Shown piece by piece: positions 14,791 to 60,702 of a stretch of DNA of 64,000 nucleotides. The stretch's first letter is position 1; each line of letters starts with the position of its first letter. A program made the translations under genes and the position numbers. Source of the DNA: Roseimicrobium sp. ORNL1 (GTDB lineage Bacteria; Verrucomicrobiota; Verrucomicrobiia; Verrucomicrobiales; Verrucomicrobiaceae); the NCBI RefSeq assembly GCF_011044495.1, contig NZ_CP049143.1, positions 2,728,001-2,792,000 on the forward strand, given 5' to 3'. The notes beneath the pieces are model-generated. The model had not been told where the DNA came from. It made no database searches and worked only from the letters and a program-made list of their open reading frames with translations.

Positions 14791-17700
14791 TCACGGCACA
14801 TCCACCGGCACCGTGATAAGAGCGCCGTTCAGCTGGAAGTTCACCGTGGGCGTGGTGCCGTTGAAGTTCAGCGTCTGACCAGCCGGGTTGGGGGAGGGCG
14901 TCGCGGTGTTGTCCACGTCACCCTGCACCTGCACCGCGCCGAGCCCGGCCTGCTCAATCACCACGTGGCTGCCTGCCACCGTGTCGGTGATGAGGTTGCC
15001 GTTGAAGTTATTCACGGTGAGGTCGCCCGCATTGCTGTTCAGGATCACGAGGCCGTTCGTCGTGGCCCGGTTGATGTAGTTGCCATCCAGCGTGGAGAGC
15101 GTGATGCCCGAGCCGGCAGCGCTGTTGTCCGACTGGATACGGATGCCCGAACCCTGGGAGTCGCCGATGGCGTTCCCCGAGATGGCCGCGGTGATGTTGG
15201 CAGCGCCACTGGATTGCAGGGTGATCCCGTCGAAATCGGTGTAGTCAATCACATTGCCGGTGACCGTCGCCGCTACAGCGGCGGAGCCAGAGGCAGAGAT
15301 ATTGATGGAGTCCGAGTCGCCGAGGAAATTATTCTGCACCACGATGGTGGAGTCCATGGTCGTGCTCACATTCACACCACCGGGCCAGACGTACCAGGAT
15401 TGGATCATCGTATTGCCCACCACGTTAAGGTTGTTCACATTCGTGGTCTGGATATAACCCCTTTCGAAGTAGTTCTCCTGCACCGTCAGGTTCAGCGTGC
15501 TCCACTCATTGTCCCGCAGGGCGGTAATGCCCGCGGTGAAAAAGCTGTTCTGCGCGAAGGTGGCGTTGATGGTGCCATCGCCCGACTCCACTTGCGCTCC
15601 CCCAATGATGTTGCCAGTGAAGGTCGCATTGATCGGGCCGCCGGTGGAGTGGAGGTAGGCGCCGCTGATGTCATTGCCGGTGACGGTGGCATTCACCTCG
15701 CCCGGTTGGGAGAAGAAGTTCACCGCGTAGTAGCCAACGCTCGAAATGGTGTTCCCCGTGATGTCCACCGTGATGCCTGTCCCCGAGGAGGTGTTGCCAG
15801 CCTGCACGTTCACGCCCATCTCGTTGATGTTGGCGATGTAGTTGTTGCTCACCGTGGCGGTGATGTTCGCCTCGGATTCCGTCACCAGCGAGATGCCGTT
15901 GAACATGGCGAGGCTGAAGGCGTTGCCATCGATGGTCAGTCCCACCGTCGCGGAGTCGGATGCCTCCACCAGGAGTGCGTCACCTCCCCAGGATTCAACC
16001 TGGTTGCGAGCGATATTTCCTGTGATGCTGCTCATGTCGGTCGCATTCAGGTAGATGCCGTTCCAGCCCGCTTCTTGGATGACGTTTTCCTCAATGATCA
16101 CTCCCACGGAGTTGTTCATCTTTGTTTGTACGAAGATGGCGTGCATGGAGGGGCTGATGATGGTGTTGCCCGAGATGGTGGCTGTGGCCGGCGTGCCATA
16201 CCCCTGGTCGTAGGTAAGGCTCACCGCGTTATCCCAGGATTGCTCAATCAGATTTCCCGTCACCTGCACGTTATGCATGTTCTCTCCGATGATTCCCACC
16301 TCGTAGAGGTAGTTGCCATCCAGGGTGAAGCTGCCTGGGTAGCTGGGCGGACCGTGGCTGGTGTCCACCCACACCCACGGATTGTTGCGCATCACAATAT
16401 TCTTGCCGTAGATGGCATTGCCGCTCACCAGCACATGGCTCACTCCATCGCTGAAGCCGGCGTCGAGATTCATCGCATGGTGGCCGATGTTGCTGAGATG
16501 GTTGCCGGTGATGTTCAGGTTGAAGACACCGCTGCCATAGTTCAGGAAGTTGATGCCGTGCGAGGTCGTGTTCTCAATCACGTTGTCCGCCACCGTCACC
16601 GTCGGGAGTTGGAATGGGTTGGAACCATTGTGCACGATGGTCACGCCGGTGACTGTGCCGCTCATGTAGTTCCCCGAGATGTTTGCCTGCAGGTCGGTGC
16701 CCGATACTTCCATGTACACGCCCTCACGTCCCGTATTCACGAAGCTGTTGCCCGTCGCGGTGACGTTCATGCCGCCCCCGTACGCCGCGATGTAGAGCCA
16801 GGAGAAGCCGGTGAAGGCATTGTCCTTCACGAGGTTGGTGGAATTGCTCATTTGATTGGCGGCCAGGACGCCGGAGTAGCCGCTGCTGCCGCTGGTTGCG
16901 AAGAGATTGCCCTCCACAGTCAGGTTCGTCGCGCTCCAGGCCGTGAGGTAGCTGTTCAGGAAGTGGTTCTGGCGGAAGGTGAGATCCAGGGTGGCATTGT
17001 CATCATACCGTTGGAACCAGACCTCCCCGTTGTTGAAATAGTTCCCCTCGAAGGTGGCGTCGATGTGTGCGCCTTCTGGATCTGCAAACGCATGGAAGCC
17101 GTAGGTGTGGTCCAGGTAGTTGTTCCCCGTGATGGTCGCGTGGACTGAGCCGCCATTGGCGCCATCCAGGAAGGTGCCGTAGTAGAAGGATCGCTGGATG
17201 AGGTTCCCCGTGAGCGTGGCGGTGAGGACTTCTCCCTCGCTGTAGAGGTGAACACCGTGATTCGCAGAGTCCAGGATGGCATTCCCCGAGAGAGTGAGCG
17301 TCATGCCCGTGCCTGGTGTGGTGTTTTCCACGCGCGCCTGGATGCCAGTGTTGCCCGCATGGGAAATGTAGTTGTTGCTCACTGTCGCCGTGAGATTTGC
17401 CATGTCCCGCGAGAGGAGGGAGATGCCATTCACCCCTGCGTCCACCATGGCGTTGCCATCCAGGGTGACCTGCATGGTTGAGTTATCCAGCGCTTCCACG
17501 CGAATGCCGTCCACGGCAGGTGCCTGGATGTTGTTCCCCACGACCGTCGCGGTGATGCCATTCACCCAGGTGTTGGAGTTCACCACGATGCCTGAACTGC
17601 CAACATCCTGAATCACATTGTCACTGATGGTGGCCTGCATCACGCCATCCGACTCTGCGCGGACGATGATGCCATGACCGGCTGCGCCGACAATGGCATT

Positions 17701-20700
17701 GCCACTGATGGTGGCCTCCAGCGGAATGAAGTCCGTGGTCTTGAAGACATCAATGCCCGCGCCCCCGGCATTGCTGATGTAGTTGCCGGAGATCGTGAGC
17801 GCGGATCCCGAGTCATGCATGAAGAGGATGCCCGTTTCCGGTGCGTTCTCGATCACATTGCCCGTGACCAGGTAGGTGGCCATGCCGTGACCTTCGATGC
17901 CGCCGTTGGAAATGTAGTTGTCCTTCACCGTGATGGTGGCCATGATGGGCAGCATGGAGCTCGGGAAGGCGGCAACCCGGATGATGCTGTCATAGATGCC
18001 ATTTCCACTCACCAGGACGTCTGATGGGCCGCCCAATGAGGTCACCTGCACGGCATCGCCGCCGGCCCCGCTCACATGATTGCCGGCGATGGTGGCATTC
18101 AGGTAGCCATCCCACCCATTCTGGGCGTAGATGCCGTGGGAGGTCGTATTCTGAATCACATTGTCCGTCACCATGGCGGTGATGCCTGCGGCTGGGTCGC
18201 CGCTCCAGACCCAGATGGACAGGCCCGTGGCGGTGTTCAGCGCGGCATTGCCGGAAACTGTCGCCGCGATGGAGCCGAGTCCATCCGAATACAGCGAGAT
18301 GGCATCACCGGTCACATCGGAAATGTAGTTGCCCGTCACCGTGGCCGTCAGGGTGCCATCGTGCGAGGTGAGATTGATGCCGGAGTCCGTGTCTGCTCCG
18401 GTAATGGCATTCCCCTGCACCACGACGGTGGCATCATTGGAGGTATGCACATTCAGCGCTGCCAGCCACAGGGGCGTGTTCTGCAGGGCATTGTTGGTCA
18501 CCGTCATAGACGTGATGTCCGTGGCCTCGATGAAGCCATTGTCGAAGGTGTTGCCCTCCACCGTCACGTCCAGCGAGCCATAGGGCGCGTTTCCGACGGC
18601 AGAGATGCCTTCATCCTCGAAGAGATTGCCGGTGAGGGTGATGTCCATCTCCGCATCGGACCCGTTTTCCATGCGCACATGGTAGGCGGCATTGTCGTGG
18701 AAGTAGTTGGCATGCAGCGTGACTTCCAGGAGCCCGAACGCGTCCGCATAAATGCCGGCGCCATATACGCCGGAGCCACTGACCGTGTTCCCCTCCACCG
18801 TGGCGCGGATGCCGGTGCCCGGCACATTCTGGGTCCGCAGCCACAGGCCACTCAGGCCGGAGTCCGTGATCGCATTCCCCGTGATCTGCGCGTCCAGCAT
18901 GGCGTCATCAATAGTCTGCACGTTGATGCCGTAGCCGCTTGCGGCGTGCACTGCATTCCCTGAAACCTGCGCCTGCATCTGCGTGAAGATTTCTCCGGTG
19001 ATCTTGATGCCGTCTCCCGCGGCGCTGTTGATCACGTTATTCTGAATCAGCACATTCGAAGTCGTGACCGTGCTGCCCTTCACCGTGATGCCGGTGCCGA
19101 CGGGGGAGTTCAGCGTGTTCCCCACGATTTCCACCTGGTCGTAATTCTCCGCCAGGATGGTGCCGCCATTAAACACATAACCGAACACACCGAAGTACGT
19201 GCCGCCATTCGGAGCCTGCAAGCCCAGCGGGCCGAGGATGGTGGGGATGTGGCCCGTCATATATGCCGAGGTCCCTCCGGGGATGGCCATGTGGCTGCCG
19301 ATGTATCTCACACCGCCGCCGCCGGGCACCGTAGCGCCGGTCGTATAATCTACACCGCCCTGCGTATACACATTCCAGATGCGGCTCGTCGCCACTGAAT
19401 TCGCCACGGCGATGTCCGTGCCCGCCTGGATGGTATCCACCGGCTGCTCCGCGGTGCCCGTGCCCGTGGTGCTGCCTTCGGCAATGCCCGTGGTCGTGGC
19501 AGTGCCGTTGTTTACAAAGATCACGTCATCCGCCAGCACGAGCTGCTGCGGTGATTGGGAGACCACCTTCGTCACGCGCTTCACGGAGGTGCTGACATCC
19601 GTCTTCTGCTCCGCTTCATTGCCCACCTTGATGGCTGTATTCTGCCTGCGCACCGGCTCCACCAGGCGCTCGGCGAGGTGACGACGACGCGGGGTGAAGG
19701 CCGCACCCACACGGTCCCAGAAGCCCTTGCCATCACCCAGGTCACCCATTTCAAAGGGGATTTCCAGGCGCATGCCATACAGCCAGTCGCTGCCCACGAA
19801 GCGCTCGTCTTCATACCACGTCGCATTCAGCACCACGGCGGGCACCGGCCGCACTTCCAGCCCGGCCTTCCAACCCTCCACATTCCCCGAGCCGCCGGTC
19901 TGCGGGCCAAAGGGCTGGTTATCGAAACTGAAATAACCCCCGATAAGGAACACATCCATCCAGCGGTCCAGTCCCGGCACCAGTACGGAGGCCTGCACAT
20001 CCCAGCCCTCCATGCCTTCTTCATACAGGCGGAAGAGCTGCTCAATCGTCGTCGTGCTCGTGGTGGTGGTCGTGAGCGTGGTGTACTGCAGGTCCTGCGC
20101 GAGTGTATTCCCCACTGCATAGGGCGCGCCCGCGGTCACCTGCTGGCTCGTGCTGCTGCTCGTGGTCTGGTAGCTGTACTTCTGGCGCTGCTCATACGCG
20201 AGCTGCTTGTCCGTCAGCGGGACATAGTAGTTCCCGCGAATCTCAAGGTACCGCGTGCCCACTTCCGCGCCCACACCGAGCTGCCAGAACTGGTTGTCGA
20301 ACTGCGTGTCCAGCATATCCACGAAGACATTCGCGCCGATGTACGCGCCCTCCTCGAAGAAACCCGCTTGGTGGCCGTCGTGCTTTGTCACCGCGCTCAC
20401 ACTCTGCGTGGTGAAGTAATGCCGCCATCCCAGGCCCAGGCTCGCTGCCACCTCGCCCTGCTCACCCCAGGAGCTGTAGGGCTCGATGAAAAGCACATCC
20501 CCACTGAGCAGGCCATCCCGCCCCACGGTGCTGATGACTGGTACCACGAGAAACACATTGCCCTCCGTGTAATCCTCCGTCGTCTTCACCCCACCGCCGA
20601 AGATGCCCGGCAGGCTCCACTGATCATGAATCGTCACCGCCTTCGCGGACTTCTCACCTGTGAGTGTCTCCGGTCCTGCCATGACACTGAGCATGCCGGA

Positions 20701-34613: not shown

Positions 34614-36068
34614 TCAATTTCCACGCCACTCCGGTTGCAGCCGGTGGATCACACTTTGCAGGCGCGCGGTCGTCCTCACCGGGTCCAGGCCCATCTCGCG
34701 CAGCAGGTATGAAAAGCCCTCCCTTGGGTCCTGCCTCGCAGCCCAGACCACATCCGGCAGCGTCAGTTTCAGCGGCAACCCCCTCGGGACGTAGCGCTCC
34801 AGATACGAGGGGTCATTCCGTTTCAAGACGGTCCCCATGAAATTGCCAAATATCATGTAGTTGCACCAGCCACCCTCGTACCACGGTACCTCATGCCAGG
34901 GCGTCAGCGGTATCAGTTCATTCACAGCATGCCACAGTTCCAGCAGCTTCCTCGGGTCCTTGGCGGATAACCCAAAGGCGTTGGAGGCACCGTGTGGCAT
35001 TCCGCTTTGTGGCAGCACCTGAGCCTTCAGCTCTGGTGACAGGGGCTCCCGCGAAAAGTATCCTCCTTCAAACTTCGCGCCTCGATCCAGCAGGATGTCC
35101 ACCACCTCCTTCGAGTTCCTGCTCCAAGCCATGTAGAGTGGGCGGTTCAGTCCCTCAAGAACGTTCCCCTCAGGGTGGGGTTCGTGCTGGAGAATCAGCC
35201 CCACCAGGTCCTTCGTTCCCCCTCCCGTGTATCCACAGTAACGCGAGCCGCGCATGAGGAACTTATCCATCAGGTGGGACAGGGCAGTCACCCACCGTGT
35301 GGTGTATCTCGAGACCAGCAGCACCGGATTGGGCTCCGCGCCATGCTGCAGGCAGTACTTCATCACCGGTATATTCATGGAGCGCACCGCACATTCATAG
35401 AAGATATCCACCAGTCTCCAGTCCAGATTGGTGAAGTCCCGGGCCATCCACTTGCAATGACCATGGCGATCGCGCGAGAGGGTCATGGCTCGCAGGTCCT
35501 TCCCACTCACGGCCCTCAGGAAGCGGTCATTCTTGTTGAAGTAGATCGCATTGCAGACAAAGGCCGCCAGGCTCTCCTCATCCCACGATATCTCGGTATC
35601 TGAGTAGTCCGGCATCCAGGTGTGCGTCTTTTCCCAGACGGTGAGTCTCGAGGCCCCCGCCAGGTAGTGCGCCTTTGCCCGGGGGTTCAGCTGCGGCCAG
35701 AGGTGGTGACCCAGACGTGGCCCGATGAACGCACCCACGGACCACATCCGCTCCTTGCACAGGGCCTCCATCTCCGGAGCCAGTTTCTGGTACTTGTCCC
35801 AATAGTCCGCGAGGACAGTCAGGTGCTCGCGAACTCCACCCATATCGATGGGGACCAAGTCATCGTGTATCCGATGCCTGTCCTGCATGAAATCCATCCT
35901 CCCTATCCGCACCTCCGGCCCGGCATCGCGGATCGCAGCCACTGCGGCGCGCACCACCTCATCGTTCACACGCTCCTGCCGGGCCTTGCGTATTTCCTCC
36001 AATTCCGCATCCATCTTCTTCCATGCGTCAGGGAGTTCATCGTCTTCAGGAGTTTCGTCAGCATCCAT
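34614..36068 (-). CDS. Ankyrin-repeat protein, paralogue of the next gene
   Basis: The 484-residue protein starts MDADETPEDDELPDAWKK and lacks export signals. Its middle section contains ankyrin-like units (FYECAVRSMNIPVMKYCLQH, GAEPNPVLL, then LYMAWSRNSKEVVDILLDRG). It aligns along its whole length with the neighbour at 36179-37627, so the pair arose by tandem duplication. Ankyrin repeats mediate protein-protein contacts. Some Gram-negative ankyrin proteins are effectors or immunity-type proteins, but nothing in this sequence decides that. Nearby lies a SUKH-ankyrin protein. Confidence 0.85.
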   Translation of the reverse strand: MDADETPEDDELPDAWKKMDAELEEIRKARQERVNDEVVRAAVAAIRDAGPEVRIGRMDFMQDRHRIHDDLVPIDMGGVREHLTVLADYWDKYQKLAPEMEALCKERMWSVGAFIGPRLGHHLWPQLNPRAKAHYLAGASRLTVWEKTHTWMPDYSDTEISWDEESLAAFVCNAIYFNKNDRFLRAVSGKDLRAMTLSRDRHGHCKWMARDFTNLDWRLVDIFYECAVRSMNIPVMKYCLQHGAEPNPVLLVSRYTTRWVTALSHLMDKFLMRGSRYCGYTGGGTKDLVGLILQHEPHPEGNVLEGLNRPLYMAWSRNSKEVVDILLDRGAKFEGGYFSREPLSPELKAQVLPQSGMPHGASNAFGLSAKDPRKLLELWHAVNELIPLTPWHEVPWYEGGWCNYMIFGNFMGTVLKRNDPSYLERYVPRGLPLKLTLPDVVWAARQDPREGFSYLLREMGLDPVRTTARLQSVIHRLQPEWRGN

Positions 36069-36178
36069 GGTGGGTCTCCAGACTCGCGTCAGCCTGCATC
36101 AGGTTACGCGGGGGGAACACTATTACTTCATATCATGGCACATCATATCACCGTACAGTACAGCGCAGACGGGCACCT

Positions 36179-37627
36179 TCATTCCGGCACCAGCGCTCGC
36201 ACCAGGTTTCTCAGCCGTGCAGTCGTCGCATGTGGATCCACGCCCAGGCGCCCCAGCAGATAGGGGAGGGCGTGCTCCGCCTTGCCTTTGCACGCCATCA
36301 CCACATCGGGCAGCGTCAGTGTCATCGGCAGGCCCTTGGCGAAGTACTTCTGCAGCATTGCGCTGTCATCCCATACCAGTACCAGCCCGAGGAAATTGCT
36401 GAAGGAGCCGCCGTGCGCATGGGAGCTGAGGTACCACGGCACGTGGTGCCAGGGCGCCAGCGGTAGCAGGGAGCCCGCAGCCTCCCACAGTTCCTGCAGG
36501 TGCTCCTTCTTTCTGACGTTGATGTCGAATCCCCATGCCCATCGCTGCGGCAGCACTTCACGCTTCATCTCCTCGGTCAGGGGCTCGCGGGCAAAATAGC
36601 CTCCCTCAAACTTGGCCCCTCTTCTCAGCAACGCATCCACCCAGGAGCGGTCGCGCCACACCCACGCCGTATGCAGCGGTTTGTTCAGCCCTTCCAGCGG
36701 ATGTCCCTGCACATCGGGACCATGCTCGAGGATGATGGCCGCCATGTCCTCTCGTTCCTTCCGCTCCCCGTTCTCATCCTTCTCTGGCAAGCAGTGTGTG
36801 GAGGAGTCCGAGAAGGGCGACAGGCTGTAGGAAAGCGCGGAGAACCACTCGTGATAGTCACTGGCGAGATTGATCACCGGGATGTTCGGATCCGCCCCAT
36901 GCTCCAGGCAGTACCGCGCCACGGCTGGGTTTCGGGAGCGCACCGCACACTCAAAGAAGACATCCGCCAGCGGACGCTCATGGTTGGGAATGTACTTTTC
37001 CAACCACGCGCTGGTACCACCGCCACGATTGCGCGGAATGGTCATGGCCCGCAGGTCCTGGCCGCTCACCGTCCTGAGGAAGAGGTCATTCTTGTTGAAG
37101 TAGATCGCATTGCACACAAAGGCCGCCAGGCTCTCCTCATCCCATGCCACTTCCGGATCCGAGTATTCCGGCAGCCACTTGTCCGGTGTTCCCATGCGGA
37201 AAAGCCAGGAGGCTCCCGCGAGGTAGTGCGCCTTGCCCCGCGGATGCAAGCGCGGCCAGAGCAGCAGGCCCAGTCGTGGCGCCAGGTACTCGCCTAGGGA
37301 CCATGGTCGCTCCAGGCACAGGGTCTCCAGCTCCGGTGCCGGGGTCTGGTATTTGTCCCAGTAGTCCATGAGGACTGACCAGGGCTCGCGAGCTTTCTCC
37401 TCCTCGGAATCGCGCGTGTGAAAATACATTCGCCCCCGCTCGGCCATGAAATCCATCCTCCCTCTGCGCACCTCCGGCCCGGCCTCGCGGATGCCGGCCA
37501 CGGTGGCGCGCATCACTTCATCGTTGACGCGTTCCAGTCGGGCCCTTCGCTCCGCCTCCCATTCCGCCTGCCTTCTTTTCACGAATTCGGGGAGATGGTC
37601 GTCTTCAGGATTTTCTTTCGTATCCAT
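36179..37627 (-). CDS. Ankyrin-repeat protein, paralogue of the previous gene
   Basis: Start at the ATG at 37627 (MDTKENPEDDHLPEF) matches the paralogue's start and gives 482 residues. Shared landmarks include ERVNDEVMRATVAGIREAGP near the N-terminus, DEESLAAFVCNAIYFNKND and, in the ankyrin part, FFECAVRSRNPAVARYCLEH followed by GADPN. The two copies have diverged considerably but are co-linear, with 110 bp between them. No signal peptide or TM segment is present. It probably leads a two-gene transcript. Confidence 0.85.
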   Translation of the reverse strand: MDTKENPEDDHLPEFVKRRQAEWEAERRARLERVNDEVMRATVAGIREAGPEVRRGRMDFMAERGRMYFHTRDSEEEKAREPWSVLMDYWDKYQTPAPELETLCLERPWSLGEYLAPRLGLLLWPRLHPRGKAHYLAGASWLFRMGTPDKWLPEYSDPEVAWDEESLAAFVCNAIYFNKNDLFLRTVSGQDLRAMTIPRNRGGGTSAWLEKYIPNHERPLADVFFECAVRSRNPAVARYCLEHGADPNIPVINLASDYHEWFSALSYSLSPFSDSSTHCLPEKDENGERKEREDMAAIILEHGPDVQGHPLEGLNKPLHTAWVWRDRSWVDALLRRGAKFEGGYFAREPLTEEMKREVLPQRWAWGFDINVRKKEHLQELWEAAGSLLPLAPWHHVPWYLSSHAHGGSFSNFLGLVLVWDDSAMLQKYFAKGLPMTLTLPDVVMACKGKAEHALPYLLGRLGVDPHATTARLRNLVRALVPE

Positions 37628-38532: not shown

Positions 38533-39381
38533 ATGTCCGACCTCACCTTCACCGGCAGCTACCGGCCACTCACCGAACAGGACCTGCGTACCTTTGAGCA
38601 GTGGCTGGAGCACCCACTGCCTCCGCGTTATCGCGCCTTCCTCCTGCGTACCAATGGTGGCCACCCGCACCGTCACCGTGCAAGCCATGGCCACCTGGAG
38701 GCCTTCTACGCCATCGCCCTGGTTTCAGCGCACGGGCAGAAGTATCCACCTTCGGAGAGACGACTGGGCATGAGCCTGGAAGAGCAGGTGAAATCCATGC
38801 TGGATGACCTGCCTCCCAGCGTGATTCCCATCGCCTTTGCCGGCAACGGCGACCGTGTGTGCCTTTCGCTCGAAGATGACCGCATCTTCCTCTGGCAGCA
38901 CGACGCCCCATATGAGGACTATCCACCCGCGCTGGCAGAACTCGTGCCGATGGCAGACCATGTCGATGCCCTGCTGGACCAGCTCGAGGGTGATACCCCG
39001 CCCGAGCCCGAGGAGGAAGTCACCCGGCTCGGTCGATGGGGTGACCTTGAGCTTCTCGATTCCCACCTTGCGAGTGGACATGACGTGAATGAAGTCACAG
39101 CGCTCGGGGATTCCCTGGTGAGGAGCGCCGCGTACTACGGAAATCTGGACTTCATCAAAGCCTGCGTACAACGCGGCGCCACCCTGCGCGATCGCAGTCT
39201 CCTCCACGTCGCCGCCTTCACCATCGACGCCGAGCTCATGTCCTACCTTCTGGAACAGAAGGTTGATCCCAATGAACTCGATGACAACGGCTATACCCCC
39301 ATCGATTGCGTGCTGCCCTTTGCCATGAACTCCCCCGCAGTGAAGCTGCTGCAAGAGAAGGGCGGCAAACCGGCCGCATGA
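38533..39381 (+). CDS. SUKH (SMI1/KNR4) plus ankyrin-repeat protein
   Basis: The ATG at 38533 (MSDLTFTGSYRPLTE) gives 282 residues. Residues ~10-135 look like a SUKH/SMI1-KNR4 domain: EQWLEHPLPPRYRAFLLRTN with NGG just after, and a later FLWQHDAPYEDYP segment. Residues ~185-275 form ankyrin repeats (RSAAYYGNLDFIKACVQRGA, LLHVAAFTIDAELMSYLLEQ). SUKH domains are frequent in immunity proteins of polymorphic toxin systems; no toxin gene is visible nearby. The protein has no export signal. A role in toxin immunity is inference from the family only. Confidence 0.88.
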   Translation: MSDLTFTGSYRPLTEQDLRTFEQWLEHPLPPRYRAFLLRTNGGHPHRHRASHGHLEAFYAIALVSAHGQKYPPSERRLGMSLEEQVKSMLDDLPPSVIPIAFAGNGDRVCLSLEDDRIFLWQHDAPYEDYPPALAELVPMADHVDALLDQLEGDTPPEPEEEVTRLGRWGDLELLDSHLASGHDVNEVTALGDSLVRSAAYYGNLDFIKACVQRGATLRDRSLLHVAAFTIDAELMSYLLEQKVDPNELDDNGYTPIDCVLPFAMNSPAVKLLQEKGGKPAA

Positions 39382-54833: not shown

Positions 54834-55661
54834 TTACCTGCTCCCCCTATCCGCCCGCCTGTTATCCCGATTGCCCGCATTCCCATTCGAATTGGATTTC
54901 GCATTCCCATTTCCATTCCCACCCGCCTTCGCATCGGATTCCTTGATGCTCTTGAAGACCTTCTGCGCATACGCGCTGCGTTGCTCGTCGGTCATGTCCG
55001 GCTTCTGCTCGAAGCGTGCGCGCACCACTTCTTTGAATTTGTCCCGCGCCTTGTCCGAGAGCGAGGCATACATCTCGCGGCCGTTGTCCCCGAGATAGGA
55101 GGAGGTGCGGATCTTTCCGCTCGGCGTCATGTGGCTGTTGTTGTTATTGCCGCCGTTGTTGTTCGCGACCATCGGCATCTGGCCAGAGGGCACGTCTGTG
55201 CGTCCTTGGTAGGACGTGGGCACACCCTTCTTCGCGGAGCCTGGGGTGATTTGCTCATTGCCATACGCCAGCCGGACTTCCTCAGGGCCAATCATCATGG
55301 TCACATGCGCGGTCTTCAGGTCCGTGCTCGGCGCCACATCCTTCAGCGACCAGCCACTCGCATTCGGCTGGTCGGAGACCACAAAACTCTGCCGCGTCTC
55401 CCGGTTGTACACGGTGGCCACCGGCTTCCCGTCCACATACGCCACACCCGTGAGCTGGAGCGAGTCCTCCAGGTTCAAGTTCCTCGTGAAAGGCGAGTGC
55501 ATCAGCAACTCCGCCGTCTCCTCCGGATTGAGGGGCTGCGGCAGATCATTGTCCACCGGCATGGGCGAGGTGGGCACGGTCTCTTCCGCCGCAGCGAAGG
55601 CGCCCAGGGAAAGGGTGACCGCAGCGATGGCCAGGAATCGGGAAAAGAAAGAGGTGTGCAT
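54834..55661 (-). CDS. Exported protein of unknown function
   Basis: The ATG at 55661 starts a signal peptide (FFSRFLAIAAVTLSLGAFAA, cleavage before EETVPT), giving 275 residues. The mid-part resembles small periplasmic beta domains (LQLTGVAYVDGKPVATVYNR, SFVVSDQPNASGWSLKDV), a pattern also seen in secretion-system GspC-like domains, though I would not call it that. A helical region follows (LSDKARDKFKEVVRARFEQK) and the C-terminus is Gly/Asn/Asp/Arg-rich. Function unknown. Confidence 0.65.
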   Translation of the reverse strand: MHTSFFSRFLAIAAVTLSLGAFAAAEETVPTSPMPVDNDLPQPLNPEETAELLMHSPFTRNLNLEDSLQLTGVAYVDGKPVATVYNRETRQSFVVSDQPNASGWSLKDVAPSTDLKTAHVTMMIGPEEVRLAYGNEQITPGSAKKGVPTSYQGRTDVPSGQMPMVANNNGGNNNNSHMTPSGKIRTSSYLGDNGREMYASLSDKARDKFKEVVRARFEQKPDMTDEQRSAYAQKVFKSIKESDAKAGGNGNGNAKSNSNGNAGNRDNRRADRGSR

Positions 55662-55766: not shown

Positions 55767-56183
55767 TCACCCTCGTGCGGCACGGCGCATCCTGTTCTCC
55801 CAGAGCCAGAGCCCACCGGTGGGCACCAGGGTGATCGCGGCCAGGATACCTATCGGGCTGAGTCTCTCGTAAAGGTTGTAGCCGCACCTCACAAAGTAAT
55901 CAAAGTGACCAAAGGACTTCAAATACGGTACTCGATGCGACCATGACGACCATACAAAACTGACGCTCATCAAGGCTGAAAGAAGCAGGAGACAGCCAAG
56001 CGCTCCCAACCCCGCTCTGCTGCTGACACGCAGCATTCCCGGAAGTGCTTTGGGATCCATCCAGTAGAACCCGAGACGCGCCAGCCCGAGACGCGTCAGC
56101 ACTGCCACCGCCAGCCCGCCCCACGTCACCAGGGTCGCGATCGCCCAGAGGCTGCCTAGAATATTCAAAACTTGTGGAAACAT
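55767..56183 (-). CDS. Three-TM membrane protein of the tandem family (type D)
   Basis: The 138-residue product has three hydrophobic segments: SLWAIATLVTWGGLAVAVL, LGALGCLLLLSALMSVSFVW and PIGILAAITLVPTGGLWLW. Between TM1 and TM2 lies the family signature LPGMLRVSSRAGLGALG. The end PTGGLWLWENRMRR matches PTGVCWFWERGLRA in the copies at 58849 and 59750. It is the last of six related genes and is separated from the others by a repeat block. No known family. Confidence 0.75.
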   Translation of the reverse strand: MFPQVLNILGSLWAIATLVTWGGLAVAVLTRLGLARLGFYWMDPKALPGMLRVSSRAGLGALGCLLLLSALMSVSFVWSSWSHRVPYLKSFGHFDYFVRCGYNLYERLSPIGILAAITLVPTGGLWLWENRMRRAARG

Positions 56184-56472
56184 GTGCTTGGAGAAGGGAG
56201 TTTTATCGCACCCGTGTCAATGAGTCGGCTGACTCAGCATCGCCTCCGCTGTCCCGCATCCGTACTAGCAGATGCCGGGGCGGCCTCAGATAACAGATAC
56301 GCTGGGACCCTCGATTCTATATCTATAGCAAGCGCCTCGATGCTGTCTTTCATTCACCGATGGGATGGGACCGGATGCGACGGGGCAGGGGAGCGTGAAT
56401 GAAAGGGGAAGCCCGGAGGCCCTTCGAATCCCCGCGTCCCGCATCGCCACCTGCACGGGCCTGACGTTCCCC

Positions 56473-57118
56473 ACGGAGGTTAGGCGTCCCCGCCTGACAG
56501 TGGTCGTTAGGCCTCCGGCCTGACGGGTCCTGCAGCGCACCACTCGCTCTTCGCGCAGCAAGGACGACTTCGGTTAACCGCAAAGGGGCAGAGTGGCAAA
56601 GGACGCAGAGGAGTGAGTGAGTTGGCGACTGCTGTGGTCATGCACCGTGGAGAGAAGTGGTTCACCTCGACGCCAAGGAGGCAGAGACGCTCGGGACTCG
56701 TGGTGGATGGCTCTACCTGTATGGAGGTTAGGCGTCCCCGCCTGACATTGGGCGTTAGGCGTCCTCGCCTGACGGGTCCTGCAGCGCACTACTCGCTCTT
56801 CGCGTAGCAGGGCCGACTCCGGTTAACCGCAAAGGGGCAGAGTGGCAAAGGACGCAGAGGAGTGAGTGAGTTGGCGACTGCTGTGGTCGTGCACCGTGGA
56901 GAGAGGTGGTTCACTTCGACGCCAAGGAGGCAGAGACGCTCGGGACTCGTGGTGGATGGCTCTACCTGTATGGAGGTTAGGCGTCCCCGCCTGACAGTGG
57001 TCGTTAGGCGTCCTCGCCTGACGGGTCCTGCAGCGCACCACTCGCTCTTCGCGCAGCAAGGACGACTTCGGTTAACCGCAAAGGGGCAAAGAGGCAGAGT
57101 GGCAAAGGACGCAGGAAG
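56473..57118. repeat. Family E tandem repeat, period 248-249 bp, about 2.6 copies
   Basis: Copies start near 56473, 56721 and 56970; the last is partial. Each unit has two hairpins of the type AGGCGTCCCCGCCT followed by GGGTCCTGCAGCGCAC, CTCGCTCTTCGCGCAGCA and GGTTAACCGCAAAGGGGC. The copies differ by a few bases only. A reverse-orientation relative of the GCAAAGGGGC part occurs at about 60500-60540. Confidence 0.88.
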
Positions 57119-57379
57119 CCTCCACGCCGCAAGCCGCCATCACATCACACTGCCGCTCCGCACCCCTCCGCCCACCTGAAGCCGGACACGCAGGAGCACA
57201 TCCCTACCGTCCCATTGGAGGAGGGACGTTTTCCTCGCAGAGCGTGGTGAGCGAAATCGCTTCGAGACAGTGTGTCTTCCCTCTCAACACATCGCCACAG
57301 GCCCAAGGAACGGGAACGCCTCGTTTCCGAACCCCTGGCATTCTACCTCGCCCAAGGCATGGGGTGCAATTCATGGAAG

Positions 57380-57718
57380 CGTCTCGTGACTTCCAAAGCA
57401 CCAATAACTTTGTACCTTTCCCAGCAGCAGGCTACCTTGCGCGCAGCGCCTTGGAGTGCGTGTGCGAAGCACCGCTTTGCGAGATGATGTTGCGAGCGTG
57501 TTGATACCTGACTTGCAGCAAGACCCGGAACGAAGCCTGCGGGATGAAGGAATGCTGGAAAGTGCAACGCTGCCTGCTGCAGCAGGCAGCTGCCCGATGC
57601 TCCGCACCGAAGCTTCCCGCCAAAGCGGCGCTACGCGCACGCACTCCAAGGCGCTGCGCGCAAGGTGGTGCACCGCAGATGCTTCGTTGTCTCAAGTGAT
57701 GATCCGTCTCACGAGACG
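57380..57718. repeat. Family A palindromic element, copy A5
   Basis: CGTCTCGTGA at 57380-57389 and TCACGAGACG at 57709-57718 bound a 339-bp element. Core copies TACCTTGCGCGCAGCGCCTT (about 57431) and its inverse (about 57640-57665) make it a full nested palindrome. It lies just downstream of the last intact tandem gene at 57785. Confidence 0.88.
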
Positions 57719-57784
57719 TGCAGAAAACCCAGCTCGGCACCCAGACATCGAGCCATCATCCTCTCCGGATGATGGAGCCTCCTC

Positions 57785-58240
57785 CTAAGCCGCCACCCGC
57801 TGCAAACGGCGCATCCAAATCAAACTCGCACCCAGCGAGATGACAGCAGCGACGGCGAAGGGTCCGGCAATGGCGGCGGTTTCGGCAAGGCCCGTACCCA
57901 TGCGCGCCACAGTTTCCGCATCCCAGCTCCGAGTGGGATAGACGGAAAATCGATAGATGTAATAACCCAAATACAACACCACCCCCACGAGCGCGAGCAG
58001 GCCCTGCCGGTAGGAGACACGGAGTATCTTGGGCAGGCGCCGGTTACGTTTCGCTGGAGCGCGCCGGGAGAAGCGGGTCTTCAGTGCCATCAGCAGCGCG
58101 CCATACGAGATGAGCGTGGCCGTCAGCCAGATGGAGGCAAGGGCAATCGAAAGAAAGACTTCACCATCATATGGCCGGGGGAGTTCCAAGTACGCGTTCG
58201 CCGCGAGAAAAGGTTGCTGGCTGAAAGGTAGGGATATCAT
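57785..58240 (-). CDS. Three-TM membrane protein of the tandem family (type A, copy 1)
   Basis: The start at 58240 is supported by an ~84-bp leader shared with the gene starting at 58741, in which both ATGs fall at the same place and follow GGAGG. The 151-residue product has TM1 (FLSIALASIWLTATLISYGA), the basic signature KRNRRLPKILRVSYRQGLLA, TM2 (VGVVLYLGYYIYRF) and TM3 (FAVAAVISLGASLIW). The product at 59303 is its closest relative (KRNRRLPRMLRVSYRQG). Function unknown. Confidence 0.78.
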   Translation of the reverse strand: MISLPFSQQPFLAANAYLELPRPYDGEVFLSIALASIWLTATLISYGALLMALKTRFSRRAPAKRNRRLPKILRVSYRQGLLALVGVVLYLGYYIYRFSVYPTRSWDAETVARMGTGLAETAAIAGPFAVAAVISLGASLIWMRRLQRVAA

Positions 58241-58823
58241 GCCGCGGCACCCTCCTCAGAAGGTCGTCATAGTCCAAGGAATTGTGGAGACAGTTTTCGG
58301 AATGCCTGCGCGGAAACTTCCATGCTCCTTGAATGCGTGCATCTGCCGTTACCGCGTTCAGAGTCGCTTGCCACGAAGGATTGCGCCCCAGATCAAACAC
58401 CAAGTGGTGGGAACGCTCGTGATCGCCGCAAATCCTGCCAGCTGCGACGCGCCCACGGCAATGCCATCAATCCACTGCATGATGGACGTCAGGTTGATTC
58501 TGCCATCCCAGGACAGGCGAAACGAGATCTCAAGGCCGAACATCGCCACGATGCTCCCCATCGACACCAGTCCGAAATTCGAAGTTCCACGGAGCAGGCC
58601 CGGCAGTTCGCTGCGGTCAATGTCTGTCCAGTAGCGGGCGAACAGACCAATGATCAGCCCGCCGTACGCTCCAAGTGTCACGACCGCCCAGAAAGGGATG
58701 AAAACAATATACGCCAAGAGGAGCGTGTCAGATGACATCATGCCGTGCGCATCCTCCACAAAAGGTCGTCACAGTCCACGGAATTGTGGAATCAGTTTTC
58801 GCGATGCCTGCGGGAAGTCTTCG
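58238..58823 (-). repeat. Duplicated leader sequences (58238-58320 and 58739-58823)
   Basis: Two ~84-bp segments begin exactly at the start codons of the genes at 58240 and 58741 and extend upstream on the minus strand. They share AGTCCA.GGAATTGTGGA and CAGTTTTCG..ATGCCTGCG, roughly 80% identical by eye. They may carry the promoter and ribosome binding site of each copy. Confidence 0.75.
58358..58741 (-). CDS. Three-TM membrane protein of the tandem family (type C)
   Basis: An in-frame GTG lies at 58759, but the conserved leader puts the start at ATG 58741, giving 127 residues. TM1 is LLLAYIVFIPFWAVVTLGAY, the signature is RSELPGLLRGTSNFGLVS, TM2 is MGSIVAMFGLEISFRL and TM3 contains FAAITSVPTTWCLIWG. 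It is the most diverged of the main cluster. Upstream DNA is a duplicate of the leader of the gene starting at 58240. Confidence 0.75.
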   Translation of the reverse strand: MMSSDTLLLAYIVFIPFWAVVTLGAYGGLIIGLFARYWTDIDRSELPGLLRGTSNFGLVSMGSIVAMFGLEISFRLSWDGRINLTSIMQWIDGIAVGASQLAGFAAITSVPTTWCLIWGAILRGKRL

Positions 58824-58848
58824 ATTCATCTCATCTCATCAGATCAAA

Positions 58849-59244
58849 TCAAATGAGGGCATCCCCTCGTATTCCCCGCGCCCGCAGGCCCCGCTCCCAG
58901 AACCAGCAGACTCCGGTGGGCAAAATAGCAATCACCGCGGGTAGGCTCGTGAGAATGAAGGCAGTCTTGAAATGCTTGCTCCACTCCATCACGGCGGTGA
59001 CGCTGAATTCAGTCAGCGGATGATTGGAGCAAGTAAGGATCAGAATGATGATCAACACGGTGACGACACAACCCAGCGACAGGAGGCCACACTTCCAGCC
59101 GGTCTGCAGGTCCTGCGACAGTCCGGCAGGGTCCGGCCACTTTCGGTCGAGCCATGAGACAGTGGCCATCAGCACGTGTCCGTACGCCATGAAACCTGAC
59201 ACGAGCCAGGTGATGGCGAGGAGAATGAGAAGCGGGTCCAGCAT
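58849..59244 (-). CDS. Three-TM membrane protein of the tandem family (type B, copy 1)
   Basis: The 131-residue product has TM1 (LLILLAITWLVSGFMAYGHV), TM2 (GLLSLGCVVTVLIIILIL) and TM3 (LPAVIAILPTGVCWFWERGL). Its loop carries PAGLSQDLQTGWKCG, equivalent to the LP..LR signature. It pairs with the gene at 59750 (shared VMEWSK and PTG.CWFWER). Its leader (59245-59292) matches that of the 59750 gene, including GAGGCCCGGTGC. Confidence 0.78.
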   Translation of the reverse strand: MLDPLLILLAITWLVSGFMAYGHVLMATVSWLDRKWPDPAGLSQDLQTGWKCGLLSLGCVVTVLIIILILTCSNHPLTEFSVTAVMEWSKHFKTAFILTSLPAVIAILPTGVCWFWERGLRARGIRGDALI

Positions 59245-59302
59245 GTTTATGTTTTATCTTATCTCAAATCTGAGGCCCGGTGCACGCACGGAAATGCTCT
59301 TT

Positions 59303-59734
59303 TCACACCCGCTGCCACCGGTTCTTCATCCGGCCGAGGCGGCGCATCCAGACCCAGCTCACGCCAAAGGGCACGATCACCACGGCAGCCAGCGGAAAGG
59401 TTCTGAAGACGTGCTCCGCGAGATCCCGGTAGATCTCCACGACGTCCGCGGCATTCCAGTGTGAACGTTCCACGACAAATCGACCAACGATAAAGAGAAC
59501 ATAGACTCCCACGCACACGAGCGCACACCGCCCCTGGCGGTAGGAGACTCTCAGCATCCGTGGCAGACGTCGATTCCGCTTCCTTGGGGAGCTTCGTCTA
59601 AATTGGCTCCGAAGCGCGACAGCCAGCGCACCATAGGAGAGCAGGGTGGAGGTCACTCCAACCGTGATGACAGCAAACCAAAACAGCAGCTCGAGATTGG
59701 ACACTGCTCTTGGAAGAAATGGCGAGGAGTGCAT
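59303..59734 (-). CDS. Three-TM membrane protein of the tandem family (type A, copy 2)
   Basis: The 143-residue product parallels the type A copy at 57785: TM1 LLFWFAVITVGVTSTLLSYG, loop RKRNRRLPRMLRVSYRQG, TM2 CALVCVGVYVLFIVGRFVV, TM3 FPLAAVVIVPFGVSWVWMRR. Only 15 nt separate it from the stop of the next type B gene upstream, so these two form a tight A-B cassette that appears to have been duplicated. Confidence 0.78.
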   Translation of the reverse strand: MHSSPFLPRAVSNLELLFWFAVITVGVTSTLLSYGALAVALRSQFRRSSPRKRNRRLPRMLRVSYRQGRCALVCVGVYVLFIVGRFVVERSHWNAADVVEIYRDLAEHVFRTFPLAAVVIVPFGVSWVWMRRLGRMKNRWQRV

Positions 59735-59749
59735 GCAGGCTGGGTCGAC

Positions 59750-60190
59750 CTATCCATCCCGGGTGTTGTTCATTTCATTCCAATTCATTTCACTCCATTT
59801 CATTACACGCACAGCCGCCCTCTTCCCTCGCAAGCTCCGCTCCCAGAACCAGCAGGCTCCGGTGGGCAAAATAGAAATCACCGCGATCCCGGCCACGGCG
59901 GTGAGGCCTCTTGTCATATTTTTGCTCCATTCCATCACGTCGGCGATGCTGAGTTCGCTCAGAGGATATTGCGAGAAATTGATGATCAGAAGGATGAGCG
60001 CAGCAGTGAGAACACAAACCAGCGACAGCATGCCAGACTTCCAGCCGGCCTGCAGCACCTGCGGCAGTCGGGTGGGATCCAGCGTCCTTCGGTTGAGCCA
60101 TGCGAAGATGGCAAGCAGCACACATCCGTAAGCCGCGAAGCCTGTGATGATCCAGGCGGTGGCGATGAGAAGCAGCAGCAACGTTGGCAT
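59750..60190 (-). CDS. Three-TM membrane protein of the tandem family (type B, copy 2)
   Basis: The 146-residue product has TM1 (LLLLLIATAWIITGFAAYGC), the signature TRLPQVLQAGWKSG, TM2 (LVCVLTAALILLIINF) and TM3 (VISILPTGACWFWERSLRGK). A polar tail (MKWSEMNWNEMNNTRDG) is encoded partly by a repetitive ATTTCATT-like stretch and may be an extension acquired by read-through. It is the first gene of the row on the minus strand. Its leader resembles that of the gene at 58849. Confidence 0.78.
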   Translation of the reverse strand: MPTLLLLLIATAWIITGFAAYGCVLLAIFAWLNRRTLDPTRLPQVLQAGWKSGMLSLVCVLTAALILLIINFSQYPLSELSIADVMEWSKNMTRGLTAVAGIAVISILPTGACWFWERSLRGKRAAVRVMKWSEMNWNEMNNTRDG

Positions 60191-60702
60191 GTTTGTCTTT
60201 TTCTAGAACCAGAGGCCCGGTGCGTATACGGAAATGTTGTGCAGCCGCCGCGTGATATCGCCGAATGAGAGAGGCGGGTAGGAAAACCCGCCAACCACTG
60301 TCCGGTCAGGAGACCCGACTTCCTGTCCATCTTTGCTGCGTTGCTGCTTCGCTGCTTTGCGACAAAAACCCACCAACTCCGCTATCACGGCCGGTTCCAA
60401 GTCTTCCTCCACGGTCCCTACCTGCGCGTCTCTGCCTCCTCCGCTACGAGGCATACCACCCCAAGCCCGCGCACACATTCCCATCACCGCACCCTCCCAT
60501 CCTCTGCGTCCTTCGCCCCTCTGCCCCTTTGCGGTTAACCTGAGTACGCCCCACCACGTACCACCCGCCTGCGAGCCACCCTTCCACTCACGCACCCCCT
60601 CCCCGCAACGCCGGATCACTCCCCGCGAAGCTCCTGCAAACTCCTTCATCCTCCCGAAACAATTCCTCTCGATTGACCGTAGTTGCTTAGGTGCCCTCCC
60701 GC
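60191..60702. other. Divergent gene-free region
   Basis: This 512-bp gap holds the leader of the type B gene on its left, then a GCTGCTTCGCTGCTTTGCG stretch near 60340 and an inverse copy of the GCAAAGGGGC part of family E (about 60500-60540). The promoter of the cytochrome-WD40 gene must lie at its right end. Confidence 0.55.

Follow-up and report, generated by a model that had tools for sequence, protein, structure and literature searches.

A tandem array of six small membrane-protein genes in Roseimicrobium sp. ORNL1, of a family found in one genus among the genomes searched

In Roseimicrobium sp. ORNL1, six related genes for small proteins with three transmembrane (TM) segments lie in a row on the minus strand at positions 55767–60190 of the 64,000-nucleotide stretch analyzed here (the window; contig NZ_CP049143.1, 2,728,001 to 2,792,000). 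Among the genomes searched, the genus is represented by one more, G001 (probably R. gellanilyticum), which has two such genes, one of type A and one of type B. That A–B pair, the six genes of three types in ORNL1, the shared leaders and the fast divergence together show, at the level of sequence, tandem duplication. We tentatively read the array as an ancestral A–B pair for a hetero-oligomeric inner-membrane complex that would have been amplified and diversified in one strain, a reading we hold as possible rather than probable. What is new is the family, without a described member in the libraries searched; what is familiar is its kind, small membrane proteins that have expanded in tandem, recently and in one lineage. 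The published chromosome of ORNL1 is circular (7,957,748 bp), and the strain has 84% average nucleotide identity to R. gellanilyticum (PMC7330248).

The first-pass annotation had described six related three-TM genes in a row, and this holds: all six open reading frames (ORFs) are confirmed in place, with products of 127–151 residues, mutual homology and three hydropathy peaks. The order B, A, B, C, A, D that it gave for the minus strand is that of rising plus-strand coordinates; transcription reads D, A2, C, B2, A1 and, after a 1.6-kb gap, B1. D (59750–60190) has 146 residues, and a 15-bp tandem repeat (59769–59808) underlies its C-terminal tail; comparable simple sequence is found at about 58826–58856, after the C gene. 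A2 (59303–59734, 143 residues) is 44% identical to A1 and 53% to the type A protein of G001. C (58849–59244) has 131 residues, with 52% identity to D. B2 (58358–58741, 127 residues) is 52% identical to the type B protein of G001 over 118 residues, and its start is more likely the ATG at 58741 than the GTG at 58759. A1 (57785–58240, 151 residues) shows 51% identity to the type A protein of G001 over 144 residues. B1 (55767–56183, 138 residues) is the most divergent copy. The intergenic gaps from D through A2, C and B2 to A1 are 15, 58, 107 and 117 nt, a spacing consistent with a single transcript.

With the type A and type B proteins of G001 (G1A and G1B) included, the local alignment score exceeds the best of 200 shuffles in all 28 pairs (Z 6.0–54), the smallest margins being those of B2–G1A (73 vs. 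64), C–B2 (65 vs. 55) and B2–A2 (55 vs. 42). The A and B types are thus homologous to each other. Three types are found, A (A1, A2), B (B1, B2) and X (C, D). C and D, listed earlier as two types, form one, with 62 of 119 residues identical and a clade support of 100/99. In the tree, A1, A2 and G1A form a clade (99/99) and B2 groups with G1B (93/95); B1 gives its top score against G1B, its long branch leaving its position unsure. The signature LP..LR..S..G, earlier assigned to all six, is complete in the A and B copies only; in the X copies it takes the form L[PS]..LQ..W..G. Strict invariance in the eight-protein alignment is limited to G, L, G, A and W.

In G001, the genes for A (L032:15921–16427) and B (L032:15510–15908) are 12 nt apart. 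The pair is syntenic with the array: it lies between the orthologues of the gene for a 275-residue protein (54834–55661) and of the PSCyt1/WD40 gene (from 60703). Only in G001 does a gene for a 513-residue CarboxypepD_reg protein adjoin B; no remnant of it was found in the A1–B1 gap at E ≤ 1. Exactly one A–B pair between the same flanking genes supports the duplication of an A–B cassette proposed earlier, and with six copies here, two in G001 and none that convinces elsewhere among the genomes searched, the description of the system as expanding stands as well. A precedes B twice in the direction of transcription, and with A–B as the ancestral unit, two A…B series would remain, A2–C–B2 and A1–B1.

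The leaders, also on the minus strand, are duplicated as well. That of A1 (58241–58325) is 82% identical over 77 nt to that of B2 (58742–58826), and their alignment scores 89, where 500 shuffles reach 27 at most. The two proteins differ in type (31 of 102 residues identical); with leaders so similar in spite of this, a fairly recent copying of the A1/B2 leader, or a deletion that left it in place, is probable. C (59245–59300) and D (60191–60246) have another leader in common (score 33 vs. 24 for shuffles). Both pairs of duplicated leaders noted in the first-pass annotation are thus real. No further good copy of the A1/B2 leader occurs in the ORNL1 genome or in G001, and the core pattern of the C/D leader is found, with two mismatches allowed, in no place of these genomes besides the two in the array. 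We therefore rejected a dispersed element, without other good copies, and also a structured RNA, since none of the four leaders has a fold better than that of its shuffles (z +0.48 to +0.61). The leader of the G001 A gene is not among the pairs exceeding shuffles.

The family is, in what was searched, private to one genus, with no convincing relative outside it. As the first-pass annotation had it, the family goes unrecognized: the six proteins give no match above the cut-offs of Pfam (two sub-threshold matches, DPM3 at E 0.017 and DUF7322 at E 0.092) or NCBIfam (the best being that of D to MprF, E 0.0049, whose 15.2 bits fall short of the cut-off of 600). The eight proteins match two PHROGs families, at best with E 0.028, and no anti-phage defence model of PADLOC at E ≤ 0.5; among sequences of solved structures the best E is 0.49. 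Rfam at gathering thresholds and a tRNA search give nothing in the window. In 57 relatives (ORNL1 and G001 included), strong matches are found in those two only, with weak ones in 14 more (E 7.4e-5 to 0.8). Among 386 genomes of the order, ORNL1, G001 and one pyrophosphatase match reach E ≤ 0.001; among 387 of the phylum, ORNL1 and six genomes with weak matches reach E ≤ 0.01. These three sets overlap, and at most 10 candidates per genome were scored in the order and phylum searches. Type A and B queries against genome contigs gave 33 and 31 pattern matches, and a type A query against viral contigs 25, none of them confirmed; A1 and D found nothing in plasmids, nor did A1, the only query used there, in phages. 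Viral, phage and genome contigs were scanned without a type X query, and these scans may omit genomes very near that of the window. A literature search of narrow keyword scope gave nothing on this family, which is not proof of absence.

The weak matches outside the genus raise the possibility of a derived fragment of a membrane-bound pyrophosphatase, its TM3–TM5 part, which has the same in/out helix order as the family. We regard this origin as highly improbable. Five of the weak non-genus matches inspected (L036, L019, L020, L064 and L065, in genomes G050, G042, G048, G657 and G477; E 5.8e-5 to 0.035) read as this enzyme; L066 (of the genus of L065), L068 and L069 of the phylum search and most weak matches in the relatives were not individually inspected. 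NCBIfam gives the same family at E 0.07–0.2 for two copies, and the weak profile similarity, of about 90 columns, reaches E 0.0037 in hhalign (none of eight block-shuffled controls does better than 0.29), but with a probability of 9%. Searched in 387 phylum genomes each, the forward profile gives six non-genus matches at E ≤ 0.01 and the reversed profile three; the best E of the reversed profile (9.0e-5) is nevertheless close to that of the forward one (5.8e-5). The strain's own enzyme is unmatched at E ≤ 10, the catalytic-loop motif DVGADLVGKVE (as read in the inspected matches) is absent, the family members have 127–168 residues against about 700 (roughly 690–760) in the enzyme, and no pyrophosphatase is among the 50 Foldseek matches listed for either of the structure models described below. 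After the reversed-profile control the enzyme was set aside as an ancestor, though the forward profile gave more matches; the similarity is most likely due to chance. A match at E 5e-4 in the phylum search, which reads as an ABC-2-type permease, was taken as background.

Three hydropathy peaks are present in all eight proteins. Lysines and arginines (K/R) number 0–1 at the N-terminus, 3–12 in the loop after TM1, 1–4 in the second loop and 1–7 at the C-terminus, and because of this distribution the N-terminus is likely outside and the C-terminus inside. The first loop, cytoplasmic in this orientation, carries 11–12 K/R and no aspartate or glutamate (D/E) in the three type A proteins, and 3–5 K/R with 1–3 D/E in the other five. 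No charged residue in the TM segments is conserved throughout the family, an argument for a role at the membrane that is structural, regulatory or protective, as opposed to that of a transporter or an enzyme. Monomer models were predicted for two of the six copies, A2 (predicted local distance difference test, pLDDT, 76; predicted template modelling score, pTM, 0.50) and D (pLDDT 86, pTM 0.62). Both have three long helices, a layout that these two of the six thus have in common. Foldseek gives no match in the PDB at E ≤ 0.001 for either model, the best Z of the A2 model in VIA-align (9.8) is inside the helical-bundle background, and the best E of the D model in BFVD (0.067) is uninformative; fold matches absent from those PDB and BFVD listings are not thereby excluded.

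In the hetero-oligomeric reading, A and B would be two subunits of one inner-membrane complex made from closely spaced genes. The subunits may pack through conserved glycines, and on the cytoplasmic side the loop of A, which is strongly basic, may face that of B or X, which is near neutral to mildly basic; the extra copies would be alternative subunits of the same complex. Of the readings considered, a two-subunit complex is the best supported because G001 has a closely spaced homologous pair with different loop chemistry and the amplification kept both kinds; from the pairing and the differing loop charges, the interacting membrane components suggested in the first-pass annotation are plausible. 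Paired small multidrug resistance (SMR) transporters are likewise small membrane proteins whose two homologous genes are neighbors; they have four TM helices and a conserved glutamate in TM1. The array proteins differ from them in having three TM segments (by hydropathy in all eight and in both models) and no family-wide TM charge, and none of the six has a Pfam SMR match at E ≤ 1.

The array genes change faster than their neighbors. Over aligned codons, A1–G1A and B2–G1B have 50% amino acid identity, against 81% for the orthologues of the 275-residue protein (256 codons) and 92% for those of the PSCyt1/WD40 protein (1010 codons). The ratio of nonsynonymous to synonymous substitution rates (dN/dS, NG86) is 0.31 for A1–G1A (with dS 1.48, near saturation), 0.44 for B2–G1B and 0.78 for C–D (bootstrap 0.48–1.27), and 0.12 and 0.08 for the two neighbors; YN00 gives 0.52 for B2–G1B and 0.71 for C–D. 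In A1–G1A and B2–G1B, read in the minus-strand frame, the third codon position varies most, and C and D differ nearly equally at the three positions (0.33, 0.26, 0.28). With a codon-usage table trained on three neighboring genes, four plus-strand ORFs over the array score −53 to −23, each below the overlapping genes on the minus strand (−15 to +6).

Several observations weigh against a complex of A and B subunits. The codon usage of the six genes is judged atypical, since they score only −27 to +6 and none is called by a simple gene caller with a cut-off of 15. The dN/dS of C–D is not distinguishable from 1, which leaves room for loosely constrained copies, and type X is absent from G001. Strict pairing is lost: 1.6 kb separates A1 from B1, and the leader of B2 resembles that of A1. 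The in/out contrast in K/R, clear in type A, is slight in B1 and B2, and the charge complementarity is weak, since the loops of B and X are not acidic but range from near neutral to mildly basic. Furthermore, a glutamate occurs near the end of TM2 in two of the three type B proteins (B2 and G1B) and at the start of TM1 in two of the three of type A.

The C–D ratio (by NG86 and YN00 alike) and the atypical codon usage would also fit weakly constrained duplicates, with the locus in a stretch prone to recombination and rich in repeats, where tandem copies keep arising and are mostly neutral and decaying. A 249-bp interspersed repeat is present in 2.5 tandem copies in the A1–B1 gap (56475–57096), and an inverted copy of part of it (I1, 86% complementary) occurs beyond the opposite end of the array (60500–60558). 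At least 89 matches to this repeat are reported in the genome, a number that may be low since 40 of 133 first-look candidates were scored; 64 of the 89 (21 of 35 merged loci) fall at 2.29–2.935 Mb of the chromosome (C1), 8.1% of its length, a stretch picked after the positions had been seen. A further tandem pair lies at 34614–36068 and 36179–37627, with products of 484 and 482 residues that are 51% identical over 488 columns. When neutral evolution was simulated, 274 and 320 frames out of 5000 each remained open (5.5% and 6.4%); because of this, the intact frames of C and D alone are not proof of constraint. On the other side, all six frames are intact, the three TM segments and the invariant residues are kept, and dN/dS is 0.31 in A1–G1A (its dS again near saturation) and 0.44 in B2–G1B. 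Taken together, the reading as weakly constrained duplicates appears somewhat unlikely.

The A1–B1 gap also holds an inverted repeat (57434–57479 and 57621–57666), with 46-nt arms, 93% complementary and 141 nt apart. Both proteins of the 34614–37627 pair have sub-threshold ankyrin matches.

The divergence of the orthologues, the dN/dS values up to that of C–D and the gain of copies in one strain would suit an immunity-type array, in which each copy would shield the membrane or the machinery of the cell wall from a toxin or bacteriocin that differs from copy to copy and comes from kin or competitors; by growing, the array would build up a stock of immunities. Some 16 kb away, a 203-residue protein (38770–39381) that carries ankyrin repeats and matches SMI1_KNR4 (SUKH-1) below threshold is possibly of the immunity type. 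Against this, Pfam named no domain of a bacteriocin or toxin when 23 other proteins of the window were scanned (10 lacked any Pfam match; four called ORFs were unscanned), a scope that comprises the window and one neighbor of the pair in G001, with no genome-wide search for a distant partner. On balance we think an array of separate immunities unlikely. Protection of the membrane against toxins is still the most concrete candidate role for the family, because immunity proteins with three TM segments are known: BmiA of Burkholderia (PMC5277000) is a small integral membrane protein with three TM helices. The likeness is one of layout, and the case here differs in having six copies of three types and no toxin recognized beside the array among the window proteins scanned. 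A combination, in which the A, B and X copies form alternative hetero-oligomers for self/non-self protection or recognition at the cell envelope as a genus-private system, seems quite unlikely.

Lineage-specific tandem-expanded orphan families of membrane proteins are known as a general kind, and the array shares with them the restricted range, the tandem arrangement, the fast divergence and the lack of a domain match; it differs in that its family is without a described member in the libraries searched. With one pair in G001 and six divergent copies in a cultured, completely sequenced strain, it offers a clean picture of a young family under amplification. If the copies are interacting subunits or immunities, the array would show such systems diversifying within one genus; if not, it would be of use as an example of tandem duplicates amplified under weak constraint in a part of the chromosome rich in repeats.

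Two other proteins of the window deserve mention. The flanking 275-residue protein (54834–55661) has no Pfam match and a start that reads as signal-peptide-like; its family has matches in 38 of the 40 genomes searched of the bacterial family, often several per genome. At 14791–20682, a protein of 1963 residues combines an inverse autotransporter beta domain with a right-handed beta helix.

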